Positions 36,120 through 44,476 of a stretch of 46,180 nt of DNA are shown here, piece by piece (within the stretch, counting starts at the first letter, position 1; every line of letters begins with the position of its first letter). The DNA lies in contig JANWLR010000024.1 in NCBI GenBank assembly GCA_025450755.1, forward strand, positions 1-46,180. Reading direction: 5' to 3'. The notes beneath the pieces are model-generated. The model saw only the letters and a list, made by a program, of their open reading frames with translations, was not told the origin of the DNA and did not search any database. This DNA is from Sphingomicrobium sp. (GTDB taxonomy: Bacteria > Pseudomonadota > Alphaproteobacteria > Sphingomonadales > Sphingomonadaceae). A program made the translations under genes and the position numbers.

Positions 36120-36426
36120 GTGGCAAACGGTGGTTGGCACGGCACTGAGGAGGAATGGCAGCGACGAGAAGCTCCGCTGCTAAGCATCGATCCAATCCTC
36201 GAACAGTTCGCCCTTGAGCATGGTTTCGCCGTGTCAAACAAACGCACGGACAGCAACGGAACGGTCCATCAGTTGGGGACCAAGCTCAAGCTTGTGACTT
36301 TGCTGCTCGGAAGAGCGAGGCGGCAGCAGATATTGGCGTAAGGATAGGCCGGCTTCACGATTGTCGCAGTGGAGGGCGGAGCTTGATCAGCTTGAGTTCG
36401 CGACCAAACGGTCGCCGATGCACTAG
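36120..36426 (+). pseudogene. Decayed gene for a small conserved hypothetical protein
   Basis: The first 40 codons read MANGGWHGTEEEWQRREAPL and then IDPILEQFALEHG, a recognisable start of a small hypothetical family (NGGWxGTxEEWxRxExPLxxIDPxxxxFA). Around 36238 the homology moves to the +1 frame, NARTATERSISWG (36241-36279), then meets TGA at 36295, and resumes in that same frame with LCCSEERGGSRYWRK (36298-36342), ending at TAG 36424. Relative to the family pattern as I recall it (NAKDWPERSLRWG... LWxCxSEDRGGxRYWK) about 15-20 codons are also missing between SWG and LCC. So it has a frameshift, a stop and a deletion. It lies between the MFS gene and ligD; its stop overlaps the ligD stop. 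Confidence 0.6.
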
Positions 36427-38936
36427 GCCTCCGGCAGCGCCTGCTTCGCTTGTCCCCAGTCCGCGAGCGCCTTCGATTTCGCGCGCTTCAGCAGCTCGTC
36501 GGAGTCGCGGATGGTGAAGTGGTTGCCGCCATCGTACTTGTCGAGCTCGGCCCAGGTGACCGGCGCGGCGACGGGGGCGCCTTCGCGGGCGCGGGCGGAA
36601 TAGGGCATCACCGCCGTTGCGCCGCGCTGATTGCGGAGCCAGTCGAGGAAGATGCGGCCCTTTCGCTGAACCTTTCGGATATTGGCGGTGAAGGTCTGCG
36701 GTTCGGCTTCGGAGATGGCGCGGCTGAAGCGGTCGGCAAAGCTCTTCACCGTCGGCCAGTCCTTCGATGCGTCGAGCGGCACGACGACGTGGATGCCCTT
36801 GCCACCTGACAAGAGCGGAAAGCTCTTCAGACCGAGATCTTCGAGCAGCCCCTTCAGGCGCACCGCGGCCGCCTTCACCTTATTGAAGTCGAGGCCGACG
36901 TCCGGATCGAGATCGAACACCAGCCGGTCGGGATATTCGACCTTGTCGACCTTGCTGCCCCAGCCATGGAATTCGATCGTTCCCATCTGCACGCAGGCGA
37001 GCAGGCCCTGGATATTATCGAGGTAGAGATAATCTTCGAAGTGGCCGTCCTTCTCCTCGATCGGGATCCGCTTCACGTGCGGCCCGAAAGTGCCCTTGTC
37101 GTGCTTCTGGAAGAAGCATTCGCCGGAGCGGCCACCGGGGCAGCGGATCAGGGTCATCGGGCGATCGGCGGCATCGATCATGATGAGCGGCTCGACCGCC
37201 GCATAATAATCGGCGAGGTCTTTCTTGGTCAGTCCAAGCTCGGGGAAGATCACGCGCTCGGGGCTGCTGATCTCGATTCCGAAATCCTCCGCGGTCGGCT
37301 GTTTCGCCTTCCTGGATTTCGATGCTTTGGGCTTCGGCTGTTTCGTGACGGTCTCCGTGTGCTTGGGCGTCTCCAACACGATCTGTGACGCCGGCTTGTC
37401 CTCGCGGAGCGCGATAAAGCTCGGGTGCCTCAAAATCCCGTCATCGGTAAACTCGCTGAACGCGATTTCGGCCACGAGCCTGGGCTTGATCCAGTGCGCG
37501 CCCTTCCGGTCGGGGCGCGGCACCTCGACCGGCGCCTTGTCGACGGCGAGCGGTTTCATCAGGTCCATCAGCTGGTCGATCAGCTTGGCGTTGAAGCCGG
37601 TTCCCACCTTGCCGACGTAAGTCGGCTTCCCCTTCTCCCTCGCAGCGAGGAGCAGCGAGCGGAAGCCGACGCGCTTGTCGCTTTCCGACCAGCCGACGAT
37701 GACAAATTCCTGGCGTTGGATGCACTTGATCTTGAGCCAATTGCGTGTGCGCGCGCCGACATAGGTGGCGCTCGCCTTCTTCGAGACAATCCCCTCGCCG
37801 CCGAGTTTGCATACTTCCTTGAACATCTCCTCGCCGCGGCCGACGATGTGATCGCCATAGAGGATCGGTCCCTTGACGCCCGCAAGCAGTGACGCGAGCC
37901 GGTCCTTGCGGACGATGTTGGGCAGCTTCTTGATGTCCTCGCCGCGATCGACGAGCAGGTCGAAGGCGTAGAAGACGAGGTTCGCGCCTTTCTGGTCCTT
38001 CAGGGTTGATTGGAGGAGCTGGAAGCTCGGCTTGCCGTTCTTGTCGATCGCGACTGCTTCACCATCGATGAGGCAGCGAGCGGGGAGCTTCGTCGCCGCC
38101 TTCACCAGTGCCTTGAACTTGTCGCTCCAGTCCTTGCCGTTGCGGGTCCAAGCGGTCGCGACGCCATCGCCGATCGCGAGCAGCAGGCGGTAGCCGTCAT
38201 ATTTATATTCGTGGATCCAGGAATCGCCCGGCGGAACCTGGTCGACGAGCGTCGCCAGCTGCGGCTCCTGGAAAGGCGGCGGCGCCTTGCTCTTTTTCTT
38301 CTTCCCGCGCCCGCCCTTCTGGCCGCCACGGTTCGATCGCCATTCGTCCTCCCCGGCCGCGATCTCGGCCATCGTGCGTCCGGTGGTGACGCTGGTCACG
38401 CAATCGTCAATGAGCTCGTCGCCATTCTCCGGGTCGGCATATTCGTCGGTGACCTTCTTCAGCATCCAGGGTTCGGCCTTCTCTCCGGGCTTCGGTTTCA
38501 GCCGGAACATCACCCATTCGCCCTTCATCCTCTCGCCTTCGAGCGTGAAGTGGAGATGTCCTTCCTCGATCGTCTTGCTCGGGTCCTTGCGCGGGTCGGG
38601 GATCCATCGCCCCTGGTCCCACAACATCACCGTTCCGCCGCCATATTCGCCGGCGGGTATCGTCCCTTCGAAATCACCGTAATCGAGCGGATGATCCTCG
38701 GTGCGCATTGCGAGGCGGTTCTCGCCGGGATCGAGGCTGGGGCCCTTGGGGATTGCCCAGCTCTTCAGGACACCGTCGAGCTCGAGGCGGAAGTCCCAGT
38801 GAAGCCGCGAGGCAGCATGCTTCTGAACGACGAAGCTGTCGCCCTTGCCCTTGAGCCTGCGGCCCTTGGGCTCCTTCGTCTTGGTGAAGTCGCGCTTGCG
38901 GTTATAAGTCCCGATGTCGAGCTTGCTGGACGGCAC
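36423..38936 (-). CDS. ligD: Multidomain ATP-dependent DNA ligase D
   Basis: The 837-residue protein joins three NHEJ activities in the order phosphoesterase-ligase-polymerase. The 3'-phosphoesterase domain (about 20-190) has VQKHAASRLHWDFRLELDG and DYGDFEGTIPAGEYGGG. The ligase domain (about 235-520) has the adenylation Lys in HEYKYDGYRLL and EFVIVGWSESDKR. The primase-like polymerase domain (about 550-830) has RCPGGRSGECFFQKH, metal-binding LVFDLDPD and SGGKGIHVVVPL. Lys-rich linkers separate domains. It starts with GTG at 38936, 3 bases after the ku stop; no other start fits the conserved opening. It seals broken DNA ends together with Ku. Confidence 0.95.
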   Translation of the reverse strand: MPSSKLDIGTYNRKRDFTKTKEPKGRRLKGKGDSFVVQKHAASRLHWDFRLELDGVLKSWAIPKGPSLDPGENRLAMRTEDHPLDYGDFEGTIPAGEYGGGTVMLWDQGRWIPDPRKDPSKTIEEGHLHFTLEGERMKGEWVMFRLKPKPGEKAEPWMLKKVTDEYADPENGDELIDDCVTSVTTGRTMAEIAAGEDEWRSNRGGQKGGRGKKKKSKAPPPFQEPQLATLVDQVPPGDSWIHEYKYDGYRLLLAIGDGVATAWTRNGKDWSDKFKALVKAATKLPARCLIDGEAVAIDKNGKPSFQLLQSTLKDQKGANLVFYAFDLLVDRGEDIKKLPNIVRKDRLASLLAGVKGPILYGDHIVGRGEEMFKEVCKLGGEGIVSKKASATYVGARTRNWLKIKCIQRQEFVIVGWSESDKRVGFRSLLLAAREKGKPTYVGKVGTGFNAKLIDQLMDLMKPLAVDKAPVEVPRPDRKGAHWIKPRLVAEIAFSEFTDDGILRHPSFIALREDKPASQIVLETPKHTETVTKQPKPKASKSRKAKQPTAEDFGIEISSPERVIFPELGLTKKDLADYYAAVEPLIMIDAADRPMTLIRCPGGRSGECFFQKHDKGTFGPHVKRIPIEEKDGHFEDYLYLDNIQGLLACVQMGTIEFHGWGSKVDKVEYPDRLVFDLDPDVGLDFNKVKAAAVRLKGLLEDLGLKSFPLLSGGKGIHVVVPLDASKDWPTVKSFADRFSRAISEAEPQTFTANIRKVQRKGRIFLDWLRNQRGATAVMPYSARAREGAPVAAPVTWAELDKYDGGNHFTIRDSDELLKRAKSKALADWGQAKQALPEA

Positions 38937-38939
38937 GGC

Positions 38940-39821
38940 TCACGCCCGTTTTCGAGCTGGCGCCTTCTTTGCCGGCTCTTTTTTCGCCGTGCCCTTTTTC
39001 GTTCCGGCCTTCTTGGCCTTCCCGCCCTCGCCCTTCTGATCACCCAGACTCTTCTTCAGCGCCGCCATGAGGTCGATCACGTTCGATCCCTTGGGCGCCG
39101 CCTCCTCGGGCTCCTCGATGATCTTTTCGCCCTTCGCCTTCTGCTTCTTCTCGATCAAACGATGGAGCGCGTCGACATAGCGGTTGTGGAACTCCTTGGG
39201 GTCGAACTCGCCGGCCTTTTTCTCGATCAGCATCGATGCCATGTCGAGAAGGTCGGGATCGGGTTTGTGGTCGCCGATGTCGCGAAAGAATCCCGATGAC
39301 TTGTTGACCTCGTCCGCATAGCGGAGCGTCTCAAGAAGTAACCCGCGGCCGCAAGGCTTGAGCGCCACCACATATTCCTGGCCGCGCATGGCGAGCTGGC
39401 CGACTCCGATCTTGTTCGCGGCCTTCAGTGCATCACGAAGCACGACATAAGCCTCTTCGGCAAGGTCGTCCGCGGGGACAACGTAATAAGGCTTGTCGAA
39501 ATACATGGCGTCGATGCCGTCCTCGTCGACGAACTCAACGAGGTCGAGCGTCTTGCGGCTCTCGAGTTTGACGCTGTCGATCTCATCCTGGTCAAGGAGG
39601 ACATAGTGGCCCTTCGACACTTCGTAGCCCTTGACGATTTGGTCGCGGTCCACTGGTCCGATTCCGGGCACGACCTTCTCATATTTGATGCGCTGGCCGG
39701 TCGGCTCATAGACCTGGTGGAACTGAATCTGCGCACCGCTCTTGGTCGCCGGAAACAGCTCGATTGGAATTGACACCAGCGCCAGCCGGATTTGCCCTCG
39801 CCAAATCGCACGCGCAGCCAT
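38940..39821 (-). CDS. ku: Bacterial Ku protein
   Basis: The 293-residue protein carries the Ku bridge/core domain: AIWRGQIRLALVSIPIELFPA, FHQVYEPTGQRIKYEKV, KGYEVSKGHYVLLDQDEID and YYVVP. The tail is Lys/Ala-rich (KKAGTKKGTAKKEPAKKAPARKR split by short linkers), as in longer Ku versions that contact DNA non-specifically. Ku forms a ring on broken ends and recruits LigD, encoded next. AAGGAGG precedes the ATG by about 8 bases. It lies only 31 bases after trpA with no hairpin between. Confidence 0.97.
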   Translation of the reverse strand: MAARAIWRGQIRLALVSIPIELFPATKSGAQIQFHQVYEPTGQRIKYEKVVPGIGPVDRDQIVKGYEVSKGHYVLLDQDEIDSVKLESRKTLDLVEFVDEDGIDAMYFDKPYYVVPADDLAEEAYVVLRDALKAANKIGVGQLAMRGQEYVVALKPCGRGLLLETLRYADEVNKSSGFFRDIGDHKPDPDLLDMASMLIEKKAGEFDPKEFHNRYVDALHRLIEKKQKAKGEKIIEEPEEAAPKGSNVIDLMAALKKSLGDQKGEGGKAKKAGTKKGTAKKEPAKKAPARKRA

Positions 39822-39852: not shown

Positions 39853-40635
39853 TCACTCCGCCATCGAGTCGTTCCGTGTAACTGCTTTCAATGACTGGAC
39901 AAAGCTTGCGACATCTTGGCGTCTCGAAACGAGATTGACGATCGCGGAGCCGCAAATGACACCTTTCGCGCCCGAATCGAGCGCCGCCCGGACGTGCTCG
40001 GGCTTGGAGATTCCGAACCCGAAAATCGGCGGCGGAGCACCGGCCTGCTTAACTCGGTCGATCAGCTCCGCGTCGAACTGGCCGGCCGCGTGAGTCCCTG
40101 TGATTCCGGCTCGGCTAACGCAATAAGTGTAGGCTTTTGAAAGATTTGCGATCCGCTTGAGAGTTTCGTCGGGCGTGTTCGCGGCGGCGATCAGCACCGG
40201 TTCGATCCCCGCCTGCTCCATTTCACGAACGAACGGCTGAGCCTCGAGCGCAGGGACATCGGCGATCAGCAGGCTGTCCGCGCCGGCTTCGGCCGAATCG
40301 CGGATGAATCCGGGCCGCGCGAGAACGATATTGGCGTAAGTCAGGATGCCGATCGGCACCTGACTGTTGCGTCTGCGCAACGACGCAATCAGCTCTAGGC
40401 AGTCGGCGACTCGGACTCCGGCAGAGAGCGCGCGTTGCGCCGCCGCCTGGATCACCGACCCGTCCGCGACCGGGTCCGAGAAGGGGATGCCGACCTCGAT
40501 CATGTCTGCGCCACCTTCGATCACCGCGTCGAGGAGTGCCGCGCTGGATTCTAAATCGGGATCGCCGAGCATCAGGAATGCGCCGAATGCGCCCTCGCCG
40601 CTCAGGCGCTCGAACATGGCGGAATAGCGACTCAT
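39853..40635 (-). CDS. trpA: Tryptophan synthase alpha subunit
   Basis: The 260-residue TIM-barrel lyase cleaves indole-3-glycerol phosphate and passes indole to TrpB. It shows [30 protein letters not shown] (containing the two catalytic-region acids), and [12 protein letters not shown] in loop 6, and [11 protein letters not shown]. Its ATG overlaps the trpB stop by 4 bases (ATGA). It is the last biosynthetic gene of the minus-strand trp array; ku follows. Confidence 0.97.
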
Positions 40636-41825
40636 GCAAGGAGCGCCTTCGCCTGTATCTCGTCGACAAGCCCCGCCCCCAGTAGTGCTTGCGCTTGAGC
40701 GACGTCCTTGTCTCCGCGGCCTGACAGGCCGACCAGGATCGCGATCTCTGGCTCTTCCGCGGCGAGTTTCAGCGCATGCGCGAGAGCATGCGCGGATTCG
40801 AAAGCGCAGATGATGCCTTCTTTTTCCGCCAGCGCCTTGAATGCGAAGAGCGCTTCGGCATCGGTCGCGCCGACATATTGGGCACGGCCGCTGTCCTTGA
40901 GATGCGCATGCTCGGGTCCGACTGCCGGATAGTCGAGCCCTGCCGAGACGGACCAGGTGTCCGTAACCTGCCCATCCGAATCCTGAAGGACGTACGTCTC
41001 GGCACCATGCAAAATGCCCGGCGTCCCGCGCAGGAGCGTTGCGCCATGGTCATCGCTGTCGAGGCCCTTGCCGGCGGCCTCGACTCCGATAAGCCTAACG
41101 GGATCATCAATGAAGTCGGCGAACAGGCCGATCGCGTTCGACCCGCCGCCGACGCAGGCAATGACGGCGTCCGGAAGACGCGCGAGCTGCTCGATGATTT
41201 GCGTGCGCGCTTCACGTCCAATCACCCGCTGGAACTCCCGGACCATCGTCGGGAACGGATGTGGGCCCGCCGCGGTGCCGAGCAAATAATGGGTGGTCGG
41301 GAAACTCGCAGACCAGTCGCGCAGTGCCTCGTTGATCGCGTCTTTCAGCGTCTGGCCGCCGCTCGTCACCGGCACGACCTCGGCCCCCATCAGCTGCATC
41401 CGGAAAACATTGAGCTTTTGTCGCTCGACGTCCTCTGCCCCCATGTAGATCACGGTCTCGAACCCAAGCAGAGCGCCGACGATGGCGGTCGCGACGCCAT
41501 GCTGTCCTGCGCCGGTTTCCGCGATGAGCCGCGTCTTTTCCATGCGTTTTGCGAGCAGGCCCTGGCCCAGCACCTGATTCGTCTTGTGCGCCCCGCCGTG
41601 AAGCAGGTCCTCACGCTTCAGGTAGATGTTCCCGGCGAGGTTCCGGCAGCGCGTAAGCGGCGTCGGGCGACCCGCGTAGTTGGCAAGCAGGCGATTGAGC
41701 TCGGCAATGAACTCCGGGTCATCTTGCGCGTCGAGGAATGCGGCCTCGAGCTGCTCAAGTGCCGGGACGAGAATCTCCGGCACGTAGCATCCCCCGAAGC
41801 GACCGAAGCGGCCGTTCAGGCGCAT
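40632..41825 (-). CDS. trpB: Tryptophan synthase beta subunit
   Basis: The 397-residue PLP enzyme joins indole and serine into tryptophan. The Schiff-base Lys lies in [15 protein letters not shown], the phosphate-binding loop is [10 protein letters not shown], and [10 protein letters not shown] is the characteristic N-terminus. Start ATG 41825 overlaps the trpCF end by 10 bases, so the two are translationally coupled. Length is normal. Confidence 0.98.
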
Positions 41826-43207
41826 TCGCGCAGCCGCTGCCGAGACTTCGGCCGTAGCGCTCCGAACAGCGCGTCGATCTTCTCAGGCGACTTCTGGCCA
41901 GGCTTGAGATCGACCGCCGAGCCGACATCGATGGCATACGCGCCAAGGCGCTGGGCCGCGCGCGCATTATGCGGACCGATGCCGCCTGCGACAATTGCGC
42001 GGGAAAGCTCGCCATGGTGCTCGACCAGCTTCCAGTCGAAGCTGCGCCCGCTTCCTCCGTCATCATTATCGAAGACGATCCGGTCACCGCCGCGGCCGGT
42101 CAACGGCTCGCGCCCGACGCTGAGCGCCGTCCAAATCTCGCAAGTCTCGGGAAGCTCGCGCCGGAGGTCCCGGACATATCCGAGGTCCTCGTGCCCGTGC
42201 AGCTGCACGGCATGAAGATTCATCAGCGTAGCGATATCGACCAGCGTCGATGGCGGAGCGTCGCGAAAGACGCCGACGGGCAACATGCCAGACTGGCGGG
42301 CGGTTCCGGCCAGCGGCCCGGCTTCATGCGCCGTGACGTGGCGGGGGCTGCCAGGCACGAACACGAAACCGGCAAATGCCGCTGGCCGGGCGGCGCGGAT
42401 GTCAGCGCCGCAGTTCAATCCGCACAATTTGACGCGCCCGACTATTAGTTCGCGAGCGGCTTGCGCCGGTTCAGCGGCGCTCATCAGCGACGATCCGATC
42501 AGGAAACCATCGACTTCCCCTGACAGGCGTTCGATGTCCGCGCGGGTCGCAATGCCGGATTCGGAGACCAGTATGCGCTCAGGCGCCAAGCGCGCGAGGC
42601 GCTCCGTCGTGGCGAGATCGACGCTCAGATCGCGAAGATCGCGGTTGTTGATGCCGATCAGAGGCGCGCCAAGCGCGAGGGCGCGGCGCATCTCCGCTTC
42701 GTCGTGCACCTCGACCAGTGAATCCATGCCGAAGCGACGTGCCTCGGCAATCATCTCGCGCGCCTCTGCGTCACTGAGCAGCGAGAGCATCACCAGCACT
42801 GCGTCGGCTCCGGCAATGCGCGCTTCGGCGACCTGGCGCAGGTCGATGAAGAAGTCTTTGGCCAGGATCGGCCCGTCGAACTGGCGCCGTGCTGCAGCAA
42901 GATCGTCGAGCGATCCTCCGAAATAAGGCTGATCGCAAAGCACACTGAGCGCATTGGCGACGCCGGCATAGCCGCGCGCAAGCGCTGCAGGATCGGCCGT
43001 ACGCCGAATCATGCCCGCCGACGGCGATGCGCGCTTGATCTCGAGAATGAAGCGCGCCCCATTCTCGACGAGCACCGCTGTGAGGCTATGCTTGGTCGGT
43101 GATGCGTGGGAACGCAGCGAATCCAGTGTGACCCGCTCGAAGCGCTGCTTGAGTTCTTCGCGCTTGGCGGCCGCGATCTTGCCGAGGATTCCTGTTGGTT
43201 CAGCCAC
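41816..43207 (-). CDS. trpCF: Fused indole-3-glycerol-phosphate synthase / phosphoribosylanthranilate isomerase
   Basis: The 463-residue protein is two TIM barrels in one chain. TrpC (about 1-255) has [13 protein letters not shown] with the catalytic Lys, [16 protein letters not shown] and LVSESGI. TrpF (about 258-463) has [12 protein letters not shown] with the catalytic Cys, [21 protein letters not shown] and [10 protein letters not shown] with the Asp replaced by flanking residues. The order C-then-F and wording of the TrpF half resemble the E. coli fused enzyme. Start is GTG at 43207 ([10 protein letters not shown]) within the last codons of trpD, an 8-base overlap; upstream in-frame codons read antisense-like protein from trpD and are not conserved. 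Confidence 0.93.
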
Positions 43208-44276
43208 GGCTCGCCTCGATGTAGCGGTCGAGCACCCCGGCGGCAGCGCCCGAAAGCAGGACGTCTCGCGCATCGTCCGCTGCCTCCTTCAAGCTCGCAG
43301 CTTTGCCCGCGGTGTGAAGCAGCACCGCCGTGTTGAGAATGGTGATGTCGCTTTCCGCGCTCGAGCCGGTGCCCGACAACAGCGAGCGCAGGCGCTCTGC
43401 ATTCTCGGCCGGGTCGCCACCGGTCACGACATTCAGCGGAGCACGCTCGAGCCCGGCATCCTCGGGACTGAGCACGAGTTGCGTGATTTCGCCGTCGGAG
43501 AGACGGACGGCGAGGGTCTCGCCGTGCAACGCAACTTCGTCGAGACCCGAACCGTGGACCACGACCGCCTCGGCAACGCCCATCGCCTTCAGAGTCTCGG
43601 CAATGCGCCGCAACATTCTTGGATCCGCGACTCCGAGGAGCTGGACGGGCGGACGGGCCGGATTGATGCACGGACCAAGCAAATTCATGATCGTCCGAAC
43701 CGCGAGCTGGCGCCGAACCAGCGCTGCGTGCTTCATTCCCGGATGGTACGCGGGAGCGAAGAGGAAGCAGAAGCCGGTCTCATCGAGTAAGGCGCGTGCC
43801 TCACCCGGTGCGACGTCAATCTTCGCCCCAAGCGCTTCGAGTACGTCAGCCGAGCCGCACCGCGAGCTCACGCTGCGGTTGCCATGCTTGGCAATTGGCA
43901 AGCCGGCCGCGGCCGCGACGAAGGCCGTCGCGGTCGAAACGTTGATCAGCCCCGATCCGTCGCCTCCGGTGCCGCAGCAGTCCGCGAACAGATAGTCGGG
44001 CCGATCGAACGGCTGGGCAGCGGCCGAAAGAGCCCGCGCCGCTCCGATCATCTCGTCAACGGTCTCCCCCTTCATCCTTAGGGCAATCAGCATCCCGGCG
44101 ATTTCCGCCGGCTCGAGGCGCCCGAGGACGAGCCGCTCAAAGAGATGATCGGATTCATCGCTCGAAAGATCATCGCCGGCGAGCAGCTTGGGGAGCGGAT
44201 TGGGAACCGGCACGTCCGCCGGCAGATGGGCATGGTCCGCTTTGGCGGGTTCAGCGAGAAGAATGGCATTGGTCAT
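43200..44276 (-). CDS. trpD: Anthranilate phosphoribosyltransferase
   Basis: The 358-residue enzyme transfers phosphoribose to anthranilate. Motifs: DCCGTGGDGSGLINVSTATAFV for PRPP binding, KHGNRSVSSRCGSADVLEALG, and NLLGPCINPARPP, all in the family's standard order. It has about 25 extra residues at the N-terminus (AEPAKADHAHLPADVPVPNP) where enteric enzymes carry the TrpG domain; no glutaminase is present. ATG 44276 follows the attenuator stem by 15 bases. trpE and trpG are not in the window. It heads trpD-trpCF-trpB-trpA. Confidence 0.96.
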   Translation of the reverse strand: MTNAILLAEPAKADHAHLPADVPVPNPLPKLLAGDDLSSDESDHLFERLVLGRLEPAEIAGMLIALRMKGETVDEMIGAARALSAAAQPFDRPDYLFADCCGTGGDGSGLINVSTATAFVAAAAGLPIAKHGNRSVSSRCGSADVLEALGAKIDVAPGEARALLDETGFCFLFAPAYHPGMKHAALVRRQLAVRTIMNLLGPCINPARPPVQLLGVADPRMLRRIAETLKAMGVAEAVVVHGSGLDEVALHGETLAVRLSDGEITQLVLSPEDAGLERAPLNVVTGGDPAENAERLRSLLSGTGSSAESDITILNTAVLLHTAGKAASLKEAADDARDVLLSGAAAGVLDRYIEASRG

Positions 44277-44290
44277 GATCACGTTCCTGG

Positions 44291-44318
44291 AAATAAAAAA
44301 GCCCGCCGGTTGGCGGGC
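44291..44318 (-). terminator. trp attenuator: intrinsic terminator before trpD
   Basis: On the minus strand GCCCGCC (44318-44312) pairs with GGCGGGC (44307-44301) around a 4-base loop and is followed by TTTTTTATTT (44300-44291). It lies between the leader peptide stop (44348) and trpD (44276). A competing upstream pairing, TGATCG at the leader stop codon with CGATCA about 10 bases on, is visible. The placement with a Trp-rich leader is the classical attenuator arrangement. Confidence 0.85.
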
Positions 44319-44347
44319 GGGCATTCGATGATCGGTTTGCTATTCGA

Positions 44348-44437
44348 TCAGTCGCGCCATCGCGCCGCAAGCGTCGGGACGCGCCACCACCAGCGGTGAG
44401 CGGTCGAGGTTGCAGCGATGGCGACCAGGTTCGTCAT
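44348..44437 (-). CDS. trpL: trp operon leader peptide (29 aa, Trp-Trp-Trp)
   Basis: The minus strand codes for a 29-residue peptide: MTNLVAIAATSTAHR, then three consecutive TGG (Trp) codons at positions 16-18, RVPTLAAR, a fourth Trp at 27, and RD before TGA. It ends 30 bases before the terminator stem. Ribosome stalling at the Trp run when charged tRNA-Trp is scarce would favour antitermination and expression of trpD-trpCF-trpB-trpA. The WWWR end resembles the rhizobial trp leader peptide (WWWAR). AGGA lies 8-11 bases before the ATG; if the promoter guessed just upstream is right, the transcript would be nearly leaderless. Too short for routine gene calling. Confidence 0.85.
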   Translation of the reverse strand: MTNLVAIAATSTAHRWWWRVPTLAARWRD

Positions 44438-44447
44438 GCGAATCGCG

Positions 44448-44476
44448 TCCTAATGCAGCAACTTGGCCCGGGTCAA
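44448..44476 (-). promoter_or_regulatory. Candidate promoter for trpL-trpD operon
   Basis: TTGACC (minus strand, 44476-44471) is a good -35; the -10 is poor, with CATTAG or TTAGGA at 15-17 bases spacing (44455-44448). Transcription would begin within about 10 bases of the leader ATG at 44437. Confidence 0.35.

Follow-up and report, generated by a model that had tools for sequence, protein, structure and literature searches.

The window analysed here, the whole 46,180-nt stretch from Sphingomicrobium sp., carries on its minus strand a tryptophan operon that consists of trpD, encoding anthranilate phosphoribosyltransferase (43200..44276; TIGR01245, 392 bits against a cut-off of 199), a trpCF fusion (41816..43207; NF006945, 462 bits against a cut-off of 380, with PF00218 and PF00697), trpB (40632..41825; TIGR00263) and trpA (39853..40635; TIGR00262). 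The ATG of trpD lies at 44276 with AGGA 8 nt ahead of it, and trpCF begins with a GTG at 43207, overlapping trpD. On this strand trpA is followed immediately by the genes for Ku and LigD (NHEJ; 36423-39821). The window comes from a 2.19-Mb assembly of 101 contigs that is 84% complete (genome G000, contig C24).

Upstream of trpD, we found a leader peptide ORF of 29 codons (44348..44437, minus strand), whose frame from 44437 to 44348 translates to MTNLVAIAATSTAHRWWWRVPTLAARWRD*, with three consecutive TGG codons (WWW, codons 16-18) and a fourth TGG at codon 27. The ORF contains a conserved core, GCGGCGCGATGGCGCG (44353..44368, minus strand), which is the predicted 5' side of an antiterminator. 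It is followed by an intrinsic terminator hairpin (44301..44318, minus strand), an all-GC stem of seven pairs with a 4-nt loop (GCCCGCC-AACC-GGCGGGC, read from 44318 to 44301), and then by T6 at 44300-44295; the repeat GCCCGCCCGCC permits a second terminator register at 44322-44316. The first-pass annotation had described both the 29-codon minus-strand frame with its WWW run and fourth TGG and the seven-pair GC stem with six T ahead of trpD, and we confirm each at these positions. The locus has two marks of the trpL class, a short leader ORF with consecutive or close Trp codons ahead of trp genes and a terminator between leader and structural gene.

A -35 element, TTGACC (44471..44476, minus strand), lies 39 nt upstream of the leader start, and, given a spacer of 17 nt, a weakly matching -10 region (TTAGGA) would occupy 44453-44448, with transcription predicted to start at approximately 44441-44437. 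A scan for sigma-70 consensus promoters returned no promoter. Of the 88 leaders collected below, 86 have TTGA[CT] 34-41 nt 5' of a start codon in frame, against approximately 2% expected per start, with several starts tried per ORF. The predicted transcription start lies about 0-5 nt from the leader ATG, which would make the transcript nearly leaderless.

Upon folding, the 156-nt leader was more stable than all 200 dinucleotide shuffles (z -3.23). When both strands of the window were scanned for short ORFs with close Trp codons and a terminator, the Trp leader and one opposite-strand ORF were recovered, the latter with a TTG start and WAW in place of adjacent Trp codons and taken as spurious, while the same scan of 12 Markov windows gave two ORFs, neither with WWW. 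The terminator scan of the window alone was not above chance (1 found, 0.6 expected); it is conservation in relatives that establishes the leader as real.

Conservation of the leader

Among genus genomes in which the region ahead of trpD could be read, 49 of 64 have a Trp leader with a terminator there. These 64 are drawn from 67 genomes with a trpD match, the other three being cut by contig ends (G423, G451 and G452); G423, outside the count, shows a trpD leader. Among the other 15 genomes, 13 have trpG directly upstream of trpD, which places trpD inside an aroF-led operon (aroF-trpE-trpG-trpD...). Degenerate trpD leaders with a single Trp before the core were seen in G417 and G425. In two further genomes, G432 (L119) and G444 (L109), trpG lies upstream of the leader-trpD unit and the attenuator sits between trpG and trpD.

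A second type of leader precedes aroF, the DAHP synthase gene that stands first in aroF-trpE-trpG. Of 36 such units 34 were surveyed, G450 and G452 lying at contig edges, and a Trp leader with a terminator was present in 34 of 34 readable aroF(-trpE-trpG) units. These leaders (e.g. MKIAPITDSAAAFAGWWWRSSISWRAND; L131 in G426, L133 in G419, and 32 other genomes) mostly lack the AARWR core. When the whole ORF was read, adjacent Trp codons were found in 44/50 trpD leaders, the other 6/50 having WxxW, and in 34/34 aroF leaders. Control upstream regions were positive in 2 of 264 cases, both of them permease leaders described below, leaving 0/262.

In named records, the closest trpD loci are labelled Sphingomonas, Sphingomonadales or Pseudomonadota. 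Fifteen of the 80 loci returned were examined (L002-L016), and a Trp leader like that of the window was found at eight (L002, L004 and L006-L011, with L009 from S. daechungensis and L010 from S. sediminicola). At L003 and L005 trpG lies directly upstream of trpD with aroF further up, L012 shows a partial match near a contig end, and the four distant loci L013-L016 had no such leader. Comparative surveys of proteobacterial attenuators exist; among the open-access matches listed we found no report of Trp leaders in sphingomonads, and an earlier notice is possible.

Additionally, a covariance model (R1) built from nine leaders was run twice, both times with Infernal's stricter filters. At E<=0.1 it matched 42 of 71 genus genomes, weak matches included; in a family-wide sample it matched 5 of 397 genomes, three of them in the window's genus, in a run that recovered only 3 of the 11 sampled genus members. 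Two other genera gave matches (L085, L086; 29-31 bits) that had no such ORF and were taken as chance, and five weak matches without a Trp leader (L121, L125, L128, L129 and L132) were dropped by eye. This distribution shows that the core-type leader is centred on the genus; Trp leaders may also occur in other genera.

Seven loci (L089, L090, L095 and L097-L100) carry a divergent second type of TrpD, 56-61% identical to that of the window, behind the same kind of leader, which suggests gene replacement under a conserved attenuator. A single genus match with the core has no Trp pair, L114 (G409:C1:2420717-2420868), where the ORF reads CCWRC instead and a terminator follows; the gene downstream looks by eye like one for a FadL-type outer-membrane protein.

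Codon constraint and predicted RNA folds

Next, we examined the core at the codon level. In 45 leaders the AARWR codons are GCG (44/45), GCG (44/45), CGA (45/45), TGG (45/45) and CGC (42/45), and such nearly fixed wobble bases indicate constraint at the RNA level. The last upstream Trp lies 5 codons before the core in 39 and 6 codons before it in 9 of 50 core leaders (48/50 in total), a spacing consistent with a stalled ribosome that does not cover the core. The exact core 16-mer occurs once in the window's assembly. We considered whether it might be a general attenuator core serving other amino acids and rejected this, because the exact 16-mer is unique and none of the 27 other core-like sites in the assembly, with 1-2 mismatches, lies beside a Trp-pair ORF or a terminator.

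In nascent folds, which begin with the core, end at the terminator loop and exclude the 3' arm, the core pairs with the terminator 5' arm through at least 3 pairs in 46 of 46 leaders; in 44 of these 46 the interior also folds more stably than its dinucleotide shuffles (mean z -1.99). This set of 46 omits two leaders of G425, that of its permease, whose terminator escaped the search pattern, and that of trpD, whose Trp codons do not form an adjacent or close pair. The RNAalifold consensus of nine leaders is the antiterminator, in which the GCGG:CCGC pairs are invariant and so provide no covariation evidence. On 27 of the 46 cores, RNAalifold chose the terminator and an inner hairpin and not the antiterminator; 7 of 18 pairs in this alignment are changed on both sides, counted as sequences and not as events, and when leader classes are compared, both partners of inner-hairpin pairs differ.

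When full-length leaders were folded with the Trp codons masked as if by a stalled ribosome, the minimum-energy structure still contained the terminator, so that antitermination would have to be kinetic, with the antiterminator forming first as the RNA emerges. Masking the stop codon gives a fold with the terminator, in which the masked core cannot pair by construction. The 5' part of the ORF pairs with the core in the window and in several, not all, of the nine folded leaders, and in two of the nine (L004 and L010) the full-length free fold gives neither a plain terminator nor a plain antiterminator picture.

Apparent TrpE loss and kynureninase

TrpE, the enzyme for the first step of the pathway, escaped detection in 35 of the 71 genomes of the genus, and many relatives carry the leader although they seem to have lost this enzyme. 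There is no PF00425 match in 22 of the 71, 12 of which have a completeness of 90% or more and a contamination of 5% or less, and accordingly no PabB was found in these 22 either. S. sediminicola (G421) is among them, and a frameshift or stop interrupts its trpD in the assembly, so the sequence may be error-prone. Thirteen further genomes have a single PF00425 protein, 54-62% identical to a PabB and 32-37% identical to a TrpE; as a hidden TrpE these proteins were rejected, being PabB-like. In the remaining 36 of 71 genomes a PF00425 protein lies beside aroF. Four genomes (G145, G353, G413 and G456) have no AroF match of the aroF-trpE-trpG kind and carry trpD behind an aroF-type leader, which suggests a separate deletion of aroF-trpE-trpG.

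In the 84%-complete window genome, no Chorismate_bind protein (TrpE/PabB) and no TrpG above the cut-off were found, the weak TrpG matches being frames of 254-527 aa that we took as other amidotransferases. As far as this assembly shows, there is thus no trpE to attenuate. The first-pass annotation had placed attenuation on trpD rather than on trpE; the attenuator on trpD stands, but the opposition to trpE does not carry over to relatives, where aroF-trpE-trpG has its own leader in every readable case.

Kynureninase (TIGR01814, at least 199 bits) occurs in 29/35 TrpE-less genomes versus 4/36 TrpE-bearing genomes, a contrast inflated by kinship, and six TrpE-less genomes have no match at this level. 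Four matches that score 199-229 bits, under the cut-off of 246, are counted (G403, G415, G421 and G427); weaker matches in G238, G392, G439 and G440 are omitted, as is a 67-residue fragment of G444 that lies at the end of a contig and with which the second figure becomes 5/36. No kynurenine operon was recognised by eye around kynU in the ORF lists of five kynU neighbourhoods. Furthermore, Trp dioxygenase, encoded away from kynU, is found in 67 of 71 genomes, which weakens a salvage reading, as kynurenine could arise internally or a futile cycle run. The window genome itself has Trp dioxygenase, then a frame with a weak sub-cut-off match to the kynureninase C-terminus, and then an MFS transporter. 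Kynureninase may serve catabolism, and salvage of anthranilate or kynurenine is plausible.

A TauE/SafE-family permease sometimes preceded by Trp leaders

A permease of the TauE/SafE family, covered in part by a PF01925 match of 36-42 bits (against a cut-off of 32.6), is present in 19/35 TrpE-less versus 2/36 TrpE-bearing genomes, again a contrast inflated by kinship; 16 TrpE-less genomes lack it, and the counts omit four matches of 18-21 bits (G415, G424, G427 and G447). A Trp leader of the same family as that of the window precedes 5 of its 28 copies in 21 genomes, namely in G274 (G274:C1:1918204-1918368; L087/L218), G197 (L083/L219), G421 (L116), G425 (L117) and G435 (L118). Four of these were found by the detector, all with adjacent Trp codons (4/4), and that of G274 by the R1 model only. 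The leader peptides end in AERWRD in three cases, in AARWRD in G425 and in AARWRGC in G274, where the permease leader is divergent from kynureninase. At the window genome's own copy (G000:C88:56896-57783) the detector found no leader. That the permease imports anthranilate, kynurenine or Trp is a guess drawn from its regulation.

Discussion

We are confident that a ribosome-mediated transcription attenuator controls the trpD-trpCF-trpB-trpA operon, and this leader switch very probably turns the operon on when tryptophan is short. The first-pass proposal of a Trp leader and attenuator upstream of trpD finds strong support in the conservation of the element, the constraint on its codons, its geometry and the antiterminator predicted for it. 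From the parts of the leader, its conservation, its geometry and its predicted pairings, we infer how attenuation proceeds, where transcription starts and how the operon responds to Trp. Transcription would begin at the leader ATG or a few nucleotides upstream. With charged tRNA-Trp plentiful, the ribosome would reach the stop codon and cover the GCGGCGCGATGGCGCG core, and the terminator would form. With charged tRNA-Trp scarce, it would stall on the WWW run, which ends 15 nt (5 codons) upstream of the core. Left free, the core would pair first with the terminator 5' arm as the antiterminator, and the operon would be transcribed. If the leader is not translated, the region around the AIAA codons in the 5' part of the ORF could pair with the core, which would make termination the default.

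Other roles for the leader fit the data less well. It could chiefly yield a trans-acting sRNA or peptide, as with rhizobial rnTrpL/peTrpL, with attenuation in cis secondary, and both the predicted nearly leaderless transcript, which resembles S. meliloti rnTrpL as described in PMC7298713, and the expected terminated RNA of ~140 nt would suit such a role; however, the peptide's N-terminus is variable, its conserved C-terminal part is explained by RNA pairing, and the strong matches precede trpD or the permease, so we regard this as unlikely. Less likely still, and by a clear step, is a terminator that merely insulates trpD from upstream transcription, the Trp-rich ORF being a by-product of a GC-rich, TGG-rich core. 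The core does contain one TGG, but the tRNA gene upstream of the leader sits on the opposite strand, so that no same-strand transcript needs a stop; moreover, the Trp codons keep their fixed distance of 5-6 codons from the core in 48/50 leaders, aroF leaders have adjacent Trp codons mostly without the core, and none of the 262 other upstream regions was positive. T-box and protein-dependent (TRAP-like) elements also regulate trp operons through termination, but at Rfam 15 gathering scores the tRNA was the sole match in the window and eight leader loci gave zero matches, a Trp-codon run being present instead, and we give an element of either kind in place of a ribosome-stall attenuator next to no credence.

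The E. coli trp operon is controlled by trpL, in which a Trp-codon leader, mutually exclusive antiterminator and terminator structures and ribosome stalling operate together. The sphingomonad leader has the Trp-codon leader in common with it and, by prediction, the exclusive structures and the stalling. In contrast to E. coli, it sits on trpD-CF-B-A without trpE, its peptide is longer (29 aa, and ~20-35 in relatives) with C-terminal codons that would themselves form the antiterminator core, and it is predicted to be nearly leaderless and has no Rfam match. The trpL attenuator class is described generally in PMC7298713, where S. meliloti is reported to have three trp operons of which only trpE(G) is attenuated, with a leader peptide of 14 aa. 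Like the rhizobial trpL/rnTrpL of that account, the sphingomonad element is an alphaproteobacterial Trp-run leader from which a terminated sRNA is expected, and a transcript start at or near the ATG, reported there for rnTrpL, is predicted here. Unlike S. meliloti, the sphingomonad genus has leaders on aroF-trpEG, on trpDCFBA and sometimes on the permease. The uORFC-13-1 motif upstream of aroF in Acholeplasma, as described in PMC8632094, is similar in placing a uORF and a terminator before aroF, but it has Phe codon(s) and is a different RNA.

The attenuator itself is the less surprising part of these findings, the more surprising one being its metabolic setting. According to PMC10242142, Chlamydia caviae, felis and pecorum carry trpDCFBA together with kynU and prsA, and the likeness lies in trpDCFBA without trpE and kynureninase in the genome. 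Chlamydia relies on the TrpR repressor and lives in kynurenine-producing hosts, whereas the sphingomonads have an attenuator and also Trp dioxygenase, and at the loci seen their kynU does not adjoin the trp operon, the kynU of G437 lying ~0.3 kb from the trpD unit. It is possible, though we hold it only tentatively and think it rather doubtful, that this is a Trp-attenuated anthranilate-salvage regulon outside Chlamydia, in which aroF-trpE-trpG was lost at least twice, once leaving trpD behind an aroF-type leader, trpDCFBA was kept under attenuation, anthranilate is obtained through kynureninase and/or import, and the leader-controlled TauE/SafE-family protein imports anthranilate, kynurenine or tryptophan.

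Overall, the leader represents a well-conserved and testable alphaproteobacterial attenuator family without an Rfam match, whose predicted antiterminator is encoded in the last codons of the leader peptide. A possible reason for attenuation on trpD is that the controlled unit is the anthranilate-to-tryptophan part of the pathway. TrpE is near-exclusive with kynureninase and with a permease that is sometimes leader-controlled, so that a regulatory RNA offers a clue to the function of an uncharacterised transporter. This near-exclusion also leads to a nutritional prediction, namely that TrpE-less members would grow with anthranilate or kynurenine and would not grow without.
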